Below are positions 13,730 to 14,743 of a DNA stretch of 64,000 nucleotides, piece after piece. How positions within the stretch are numbered: the stretch's first letter is position 1; every line of letters begins with the position of its first letter. Origin of the DNA: Corynebacterium accolens (GTDB taxonomy: Bacteria; Actinomycetota; Actinomycetes; Mycobacteriales; Mycobacteriaceae); the NCBI RefSeq assembly GCF_023520795.1, contig NZ_CP046605.1, forward strand, positions 2,401,438 through 2,465,437, given 5' to 3'. The notes beneath the pieces are model-generated. The model did not search any database, was not told where the DNA came from, and worked only from the letters and a program-made list of their open reading frames with translations. The position numbers and the translations under genes were made by a program.

Positions 13730-14743
13730 TTAGAAATCCCAGTCGGCATCGGAGGTCTCTACGGCTTTGCCGATGATATAAGAGGACCCCGACCCCGAAA
13801 AGAAGTCGTGGTTTTCATCCGATCCTGGCGTGAGTGCCGCGAGGATCTTCGGGTTGACCTGGCACTCCTCGTACGGGAAGAGGTTGGGATAGCCCAGATT
13901 CATCAGGGCTTTATTGGCGTTGTAGCGCACGAACGTCGCGACATCATCCATAAGCCCGTATGGTTCATAGAGCTCACCGGAGTAGCGCATCTCCAGGTCA
14001 TAGAGCTTGCGCACCAGGTCAAAGGTGAATTCGCGCATTTCTTCGCGGCGAGCTTCCGTGGCGTGGTCTAGTCCCCGCTGGAATTTATATCCGGAGTAGT
14101 AGCCGTGGACCGCCTTATCCCGCAGGATGAGCCTGATCATGTCTGCTGTATTGGTCAGCTTTCCGTGCACGCTGAAGTGCAGTGGAAGATAGAAGCCGGC
14201 GTACAGCAGCAAGGAGGACAAGAGGGTAGAAGCAACCTTGCGCTTTAGTGGGTCATCGCCATAGTAATGCACCATCACACTGGTAGCGCGCTGCTGCAGC
14301 ACTGGGTTATCCACGGCCCACGCATAGGATTTCTCGATCTCTTCGGTGCTGGCCAGGGTAGAAAAGATGGAGGAGTAGCTCCGCGCGTGCACCGCCTGCA
14401 TGAAGGCGATATTGGTATAAACGGCCTCCTCATGCTCAGTCCGGGCATCTTGAATCTGGCTGATTTCACCCACCGTGGCCTGCACGGTATCCAGTAGCGT
14501 CAGGCCGGTAAAGACGCGAATGGTGAGGTCGCGCTCGGCTGGATCCATGCACGACCAGTCATTGCGGTCATTGGAAAGCGGGACCTTCTCCGGCAGCCAG
14601 AAATTCGAGGTCAGGCGGTTCCACACCTCTAAATCCTTATCGTCCCAGATGCGATTCCAGTTCACTGGGCGCAGCGGCGTGGAAGCATCGTGACGAAAAT
14701 GCGGCGGGGTTTGGGATCGCTCAATGAGCTCTTGATATTTCAT
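13730..14743 (-). CDS. nrdF: Ribonucleotide reductase R2 subunit, class Ie-type NrdF (QSK variant)
   Basis: 337 residues, full length for NrdF, with the expected C-terminus for binding NrdE ([17 protein letters not shown]...DADWDF). The radical tyrosine is Tyr123 (VHARSYSS). Of the six normal metal ligands, Asp85, His119 and His213 are kept, but the three glutamates are changed: Gln116 (FMQAVH, codon CAG at 14396-14398), Ser176 (STLLSS, codon TCC) and Lys210 (LRDKAVHG, codon AAG). QSK or VPK replacement at these positions defines class Ie R2 proteins, which work without metal using a DOPA radical made by NrdI and oxygen. No nrdE or nrdH is in the window, so the catalytic subunit is encoded elsewhere. 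nrdI lies 39 bases upstream. Confidence 0.92.

Follow-up and report, generated by a model that had tools for sequence, protein, structure and literature searches.

A class Ie (QSK) ribonucleotide reductase R2 gene flanked by a MntR-like regulator gene and an FMN_red flavoprotein gene in Corynebacterium

The locus and the active-site residues of its NrdF

The window, i.e. the whole stretch of 64,000 nucleotides that was analyzed, covers positions 2401438-2465437 of a 2.466-Mb Corynebacterium genome assembled as one contig (G000:C1). On its minus strand follow one another a mntR-like gene, a 12-bp hairpin, nrdI, nrdF and a gene encoding an FMN_red-family flavoprotein. The mntR-like gene (15401..16135) codes for a regulator of the DtxR/MntR family with PF01325, PF02742 and FeoA domains, and is a second copy besides a mntR linked to transporter genes elsewhere in the genome. 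The perfect hairpin (15360..15387), recognized by direct reading, lies after this gene and before the promoter region of nrdI. It may be a terminator; no T-run follows it and it is absent from the list produced by the terminator scan. A putative operator with the half-sites CGTAGTT, AAGTACG and TGTAGTT precedes nrdI (15298..15327). The flavodoxin-like activator gene nrdI itself (14783..15256; TIGR00333 at 150.5 bits for a cut-off of 74.65, and PF07972) ends 39 bases before nrdF (13730..14743; 337 residues; Pfam Ribonuc_red_sm, 2.9e-82). The FMN_red gene (13128..13694; 188 residues; PF03358 at 105.3 bits for a gathering score of 24, 3e-30) starts 35 bases after nrdF. The next ORF beyond it (12449-13099) is convergent and has no Pfam or NCBIfam match.

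The closest solved sequences to the window NrdF are 8rag and 8rah (4e-151), the QSK R2e of Gardnerella vaginalis, and the alignment is gapless over residues 8-337 with a constant offset of 27. The residues published for the Gardnerella site, D112, Q143, H146, Y150, S203, K237 and H240 (PMC11846895), map exactly to D85, Q116, H119, Y123, S176, K210 and H213. The corresponding minus-strand codons are GAT for Asp85 (14491-14489), CAG for Gln116 (14396..14398), TAC for the would-be DOPA residue Tyr123 (14375..14377), TCC for Ser176 (14216..14218), AAG for Lys210 (14114..14116) and CAC for both His119 and His213. A first-pass annotation had read CAG, TCC and AAG on the minus strand as Gln116, Ser176 and Lys210 in place of metal-binding glutamates, with Asp85, His119, His213 and Tyr123 kept; codon reading and alignment bear it out on every residue. 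Of the class Ib dimetal ligand set, which comprises four carboxylates and two histidines, the three glutamates are replaced in the window protein. The ammonium group of K237, the counterpart of Lys210, occupies the Mn1 place in 8rag (PMC11846895).

Models of NCBIfam match the window NrdF as a class 1b subunit beta, a label that does not tell class Ie from class Ib. In the 80 loci retrieved with this protein, the seven columns read DQHYSKH in 61 and DEHYEEH in 19, taking the best match per locus; one locus (L039) contains one QSK and one EEE NrdF. The 119 NrdF ORFs that were recovered are either QSK (100) or EEE (19), with no mixed motif. A tree of 121 NrdF rows separates 84 QSK from 37 EEE sequences by one branch (SH-aLRT 100), in a quick search without bootstrap on rows picked for either motif and with the motif columns kept in. 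Because the same set is carried by 61 of the 80 relatives, among them near-identical open QSK loci in five other assemblies, it is neither chance nor a sequencing slip. A sequencing or frame error was ruled out by the identical residues of the other assemblies, and a pseudogene by the open frame and the conserved site. One QSK nrdF copy of another genome (G026:C34:15991-16962) has an in-frame stop (TAG).

From its residues, its grouping in the tree and the nrdI gene in its locus, the window NrdF is classified as a class Ie (QSK) R2 subunit, the type to which the first-pass annotation had already assigned it. Such QSK subunits have been published, and the window protein is a further member. Its homologue from Gardnerella/Bifidobacterium vaginale, about 66% identical, contained only trace iron and manganese, carried DOPA upon co-expression with NrdI and was active solely in the DOPA form (PMC11846895). 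By homology, the window NrdF would likewise be metal-free and form DOPA. The VPK R2 proteins of Mesoplasma florum, Streptococcus pyogenes and Aerococcus urinae belong to the same subclass and have NrdI as partner, but they carry VPK instead of QSK, are encoded in the order nrdFIE and have their own R1 (PMC11846895).

A class Ib enzyme with the only R1 of the genome

The genome encodes another NrdF (C1:1986991-1987941), 61% identical to the QSK protein and with a similar C-terminal tail, but with the three glutamates kept (DEHYEEH at the seven columns). It belongs to a nrdH-nrdI-nrdE ... nrdF locus at about C1:1986991-1991714, and the second, normal nrd set for which the first-pass annotation had advised a search is thus present. 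Two copies of NrdI were found in the genome and a single R1 (Pfam PF02867), which is the NrdE of this class Ib locus; the QSK nrdF has no R1 gene next to it. That search rules out an R1 dedicated to the R2e in this genome, and the R2e must therefore depend on the R1 of the class Ib locus. In the cell, NrdE would therefore be shared by the R2e and the Mn-type R2b, and the radical of the R2e would be passed to it. The same conclusion of a borrowed R1 was reached by John et al. for nrdIF loci in general (PMC11846895). The C-terminal tails of the two R2 proteins of the genome are alike and not discriminating, nor do such tails separate R2e proteins with an R1 of their own from those without. In Gardnerella/B. 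vaginale the genes nrdHIEF stand together and encode the sole class I enzyme (PMC11846895), whereas the window has nrdIF without nrdE in addition to a full class Ib set. The FMN_red and mntR-like genes of the window locus are a further difference.

The search of 81 Corynebacterium genomes yielded 41 that carry a QSK nrdF. NrdE is present once in 21 of them, twice in 19 and only as fragments in one (G003), and an EEE-type NrdF occurs in all 41, with the motif read in each. According to John et al., the majority (40) of the species with QSK as sole ribonucleotide reductase are Corynebacterium (PMC11846895). The two counts do not fit; a nrdF distant from nrdE may have been overlooked in the published one. 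Among the 77 EEE-labelled nrdF genes of the 81 genomes, the motif was read in 73, and those of G023, G031, G039 and G045 are labelled by score alone. Eight distant or fragmentary matches with unread motifs (in G011, G017, G018, G043, G050, G055, G060 and G074) were kept out of the EEE class, the fragments G074:C185 and G045:C122 were left out and two pieces in G076 were counted as one nrdF. Four genomes have an extra distant nrdF that is 54-57% identical and whose motif was left unread; it is the third copy in G011, G050 and G055 and the second in G043. Genome G072 has two QSK loci, L220 (G072:C30:33608-46603) and L130 (G072:C49), one of them nrdIEF and the other nrdIF.

The presence of a complete class Ib set is compatible with the R2e being a decayed or redundant relic, the work being done by the ordinary R2b, as is the stop codon of the QSK gene in G026. 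Nevertheless, the window gene has an intact reading frame, all seven site residues and near-identical open copies in the five other assemblies, and none of the 119 recovered ORFs has a mixed motif. Moreover, nrdI is found in the flanks of 58 of the 61 QSK loci of the 80-locus set and of all 41 Corynebacterium QSK loci that were fetched, and the QSK R2e of B. vaginale is active in vitro (PMC11846895). A relic is thus very improbable.

A second MntR-like regulator and the operator-like sites

The window regulator scores over the cut-off for both PF01325 and PF02742, the DNA-binding and metal-binding domains of the DtxR family, and its nearest solved sequence is 5zr4. Its scores against the NCBIfam MntR models are below the cut-offs (146 vs 350 bits for NF047407, 50 vs 153 and 42 vs 138 for two others). 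In the 81 Corynebacterium genomes, 22 of the 42 QSK nrdF genes have a MntR-like gene within 6 kb, compared with none of the 77 EEE-labelled ones and none of the eight distant or fragmentary ones; a MntR fragment in G070 is not counted as linked. MntR-like matches at E 1e-20 average 1.6 per QSK genome and 0.8 per other genome.

The other mntR of the window genome (C1:1893451) adjoins genes for a ZnuA-type binding protein, an ATPase and an ABC-3 permease, followed by a further permease-like ORF, and this group is taken as mntABCD. In a tree of 45 MntR copies, 25 of the 29 linked ones are set apart (branch 98/98) from the branch of this mntABCD-linked copy; the alignment lacks the linked regulator of L120, and its 15 unlinked copies were hand-picked. 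The stretch of the recognition helix reads RLSSASDAVRR in the window regulator and KVPTASEAIKK in the mntABCD-linked copy. On the mntABCD-linked side fall the linked regulators of G038, G040, G055 and G061. Six unlinked copies (G008, G021, G024, G048, G054, G078) and the FMN_red-adjoining copy of G027 sit among the QSK-linked group, which is therefore not exclusive to QSK loci. Two of these unlinked copies come from non-QSK genomes (L275 and L276, of G048 and G008) and are 55% identical to the window regulator.

An alternative is that iron or oxidative stress controls the unit, the regulator being a DtxR-type iron sensor or having no action on nrdI. The scores below the NCBIfam MntR cut-offs would agree with it, as would the hairpin between the regulator gene and nrdI; leuS adjoins the mntR-like gene in close relatives, and the adjacency could be inherited synteny. 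However, the window regulator has Asp14 and Glu107 at two aligned places that we take to be those of the sulphur-containing metal ligands of DtxR, Met and Cys, and Cys and Met are absent from both places in all 29 linked regulators of the alignment. This meaning of the two places agrees with PMC9936198. MntR-like genes are also found near QSK nrdF in several arrangements; at the nrdIF locus of G072 (L220), the mntR-like gene is divergent and an exact operator lies in the shared gap. Finally, DtxR did not bind to the nrdI promoter of C. diphtheriae (PMC13001254). An iron sensor, or a regulator without effect on nrdI, appears unlikely, and a manganese-responsive regulator is preferred.

The motif AACTACG-N6-CGTAGTT stands before nrdI in many MntR-linked loci, often doubled with a gap of 2 bases. 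Its half-sites are constant while its spacer varies, as would be expected of a binding site. Exact sites number 27 in the 81 genomes and all of them precede a QSK nrdI (16 loci in 15 genomes), for an arithmetic expectation of about one in some 200 Mb. When one mismatch is tolerated, the motif gives 41 sites, of which 11 are not before a QSK nrdI, and the reversed control gives 55; the one-mismatch numbers therefore prove nothing, and only exactness and place speak for the motif. Upstream of nrdI, an operator score of 3 or better, with shuffles of single bases, was obtained at 18 of the 22 MntR-linked QSK loci vs 2 of the 20 unlinked ones. The four linked loci without a site are those of G038, G040, G055 and G061, and in G070 an exact site has only the MntR fragment beside it. 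A single nrdIEF island, in closely similar copies, accounts for 14 of the 18 operator-bearing linked loci, which reduces the independent support to about five locus types and C. flavescens L011. This island (mntR / nrdI-nrdE-nrdF(QSK) / FMN_red; L117 and L120-L132 in 14 Corynebacterium genomes) encodes a NrdF about 76% identical to that of the window; it is scattered over the NrdE/NrdF tree, which suggests horizontal transfer.

In the window, the sequence CGTAGTT-AA-AAGTACG-TTAGATC-TGTAGTT at 15327-15298, with a spacing of 7, is a degenerate form of the relatives' site; the strict motif is not found in the window within 3 mismatches. The everted pair of half-sites at 15312-15327 has 1 mismatch, where 0.03 such pairs would be expected in 64 kb with as many as 2 mismatches allowed, and five close relatives show almost no variation over the whole site. 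A second type of box, GTTCAAN4TTGAAC, has a single exact copy in the window genome, before the mntABCD-linked mntR, and none was seen before the window nrdI on reading that region. In 24 genomes picked among the 41 QSK carriers, 23 exact sites were found vs 3 with the reversed control. They precede mntR-like genes (7), QSK nrdI (5) and FMN_red genes (2) or lie elsewhere (9), and the 900 bases upstream of EEE nrdF genes contain none. Two types of putative operator thus precede QSK nrdI in relatives, the window's own being degenerate.

Published regulation of related genes points in the same direction. The nrdI-nrdF2 pair of C. diphtheriae (DIP1923-1924), similar in composition to that of the window, is listed in a table of MntR-regulated genes, along with mntABCD and with the oxidoreductase DIP2262, located next to sodA (DIP2261), whose change has the same sign (PMC13001254). 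From the gene order, DIP1924 would be a QSK protein and DIP2262 an FMN_red. In C. pseudotuberculosis, MntR is treated as acting on mntABCD, and nrdI and nrdF are unnamed in the part of that paper that is available (PMC3022926). A parallel may be drawn with another phylum, in which the streptococcal regulator MtsR also belongs to the DtxR family. In S. pyogenes, which like the window genome has a second ribonucleotide reductase, it acts as a repressor of the nrdF.2IE.2 operon (PMC6593403). The conditions under which class Ie enzymes are used in the cell are described as not understood, with the iron and manganese repression in S. pyogenes being cited (PMC8463856). The suggestion of the first-pass annotation that the enzyme serves under metal starvation gains support from the adjoining MntR-type gene, the operator-like sites of relatives and the C. 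diphtheriae table (PMC13001254).

The flavoprotein and a probable Mn-repressed backup

Solved relatives of the FMN_red protein are named FMN, chromate or azo reductases, and the GSLRxxS, ENNRTIPACLKNA and SHSVGRMGGYSS runs are nearly invariant among 20 aligned members. In the 80-locus set, the FMN_red cluster is present at 13 of the 61 QSK loci and at none of the 19 EEE loci, always about 1 kb on and on the same strand; a partial gene in L020 brings the QSK count to 14. Close relatives, i.e. with 60% identity or more, occur in 29 of the 41 QSK Corynebacterium genomes and in none of the 40 others (Fisher p 1e-12, kinship ignored), a distant match in the non-QSK genome G078 (38% identity, E 5e-17) not being counted. 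At the level of genes, FMN_red lies within 6 kb of 23 of 42 QSK nrdF vs 0 of 77 EEE-labelled nrdF. Outside Corynebacterium, it was found in 12 of 29 QSK genomes vs none of the 15 to which an EEE locus had led; these were sorted by that locus and may hold a QSK gene elsewhere. The set comprises 45 of the 80 loci (29 QSK and 16 EEE), with several near-copies dropped. At E 1e-50, no match was obtained in 295 other Actinomycetota, drawn evenly and irrespective of QSK status.

Co-transfer of linked genes alone would yield co-occurrence, and FMN_red could be a passenger, i.e. a general quinone, azo or chromate reductase that moved with the operon and has no role in ribonucleotide reduction. The names of its solved relatives are in line with this. 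The unlinked cases count most in this respect, because linked genes move together: the genomes in which FMN_red stands at another place or on a different contig are G027, G030, G042, G055 and G067, and each of them is a QSK carrier. In G042 and G067, the unlinked gene adjoins a Fe/Mn superoxide dismutase gene, as DIP2262 adjoins sodA in C. diphtheriae, and is preceded by the MntR box GTTCAAN4TTGAAC. Each of these two genomes has one MntR-like match, whereas in the window a second MntR gene and the flavoprotein gene flank nrdIF. With as many as 2 mismatches allowed, neither box was found in the regions that hold the unlinked FMN_red of G027, G030 and G055, which would suit a passenger. In G027, a mntR-like gene and FMN_red are paired away from nrdF (L262, G027:C1:388958-390409).

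The distribution was also placed on a species tree of NrdE and class Ib NrdF from 77 of the 81 genomes. QSK requires 18 or 19 changes on it and FMN_red 15, and a dependent two-trait model is favored over an independent one (2dlnL 47, p 1e-9). Among 12 independent pairs that differ in QSK across supported branches, FMN_red follows in about 9 and opposes in none (sign test, median p 0.004). Distances of FMN_red and NrdF-QSK are correlated in 27 genomes (r 0.89; partial 0.81 given NrdE), as expected of genes inherited together. A close FMN_red relative is missing from 12 of the 41 QSK Corynebacterium genomes and from 17 of the 29 other QSK genomes; it is therefore not obligatory, a point in favor of the passenger. 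Nevertheless, the restriction to QSK genomes when unlinked, the absence from non-QSK Corynebacterium, EEE-reached and other actinomycetotal genomes, the box in G042 and G067 and the independent pairs argue for a functional tie. A passenger remains a serious candidate, albeit a somewhat doubtful one, and FMN_red may be a partner of the class Ie system.

As to its task, a supply of electrons to NrdI would be favored over the reduction of the DOPA-quinone of R2, because reduced NrdI is needed for QSK activity (PMC11846895) and because Bacillus cereus uses an FNR-type enzyme. In the latter, FNR2 is the endogenous reductase of NrdI (PMC10294844); the transfer of NAD(P)H electrons to NrdI proposed for FMN_red would be alike, but FNR2 is a thioredoxin-reductase-like FAD enzyme and the window gene is of the FMN_red family. 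John et al. had no protocol for a constant replenishment of reduced NrdI, a possible limit of their assay (PMC11846895). The flavoprotein, which goes with QSK nrdF, is often adjacent to it and has a MntR box in two genomes, is a concrete candidate for keeping NrdI reduced. The available text of PMC11846895 does not contain 'MntR' and has 'FMN' once, as the cofactor of NrdI. In the literature searched, whose coverage includes few subscription papers and makes an absence weak, no paper was found that brings together NrdI, an FMN reductase and a ribonucleotide reductase, nor a description of a QSK link to FMN_red or to a second MntR that has a separate operator.

A gene for a manganese-type switch and a flavin enzyme next to the metal-free R2 suggest a backup for scarce manganese. 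It is highly probable that the unit is such a Mn-repressed backup, a metal-free R2e that relies on the class Ib R1 and is produced once manganese becomes short. Its metal-free half most likely holds by homology to the characterized enzyme, and its manganese half by the regulator, the operators and the published expression in a relative. While manganese is ample, a repressor of the MntR type, most likely the neighbouring second copy in this genome, would keep nrdI-nrdF-FMN_red off. Upon a fall in manganese the three genes would be expressed. NrdI and O2 would then convert Tyr123 to DOPA and oxidize it to a radical without a metal centre, FMN_red may reduce NrdI or, alternatively, the DOPA-quinone of R2, and the synthesis of dNTPs would continue without manganese.

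What is added here to a QSK nrdF of known type is its surroundings, i.e. the association with FMN_red and with a second MntR. That two operator types precede these genes is relevant to the circumstances in which the metal-free enzyme is supposed to operate. Tentatively, and with slightly more doubt than confidence for the proposal as a whole, the class Ie QSK ribonucleotide reductase may have FMN_red as a further component, which re-reduces NrdI or returns an over-oxidized DOPA-quinone R2 to DOPA, and in part of Corynebacterium a second MntR, acting through a separate operator (AACTACG-N6-CGTAGTT), may run the module, so that one R1 would be handed from a Mn-dependent to a metal-free R2 when manganese runs out.
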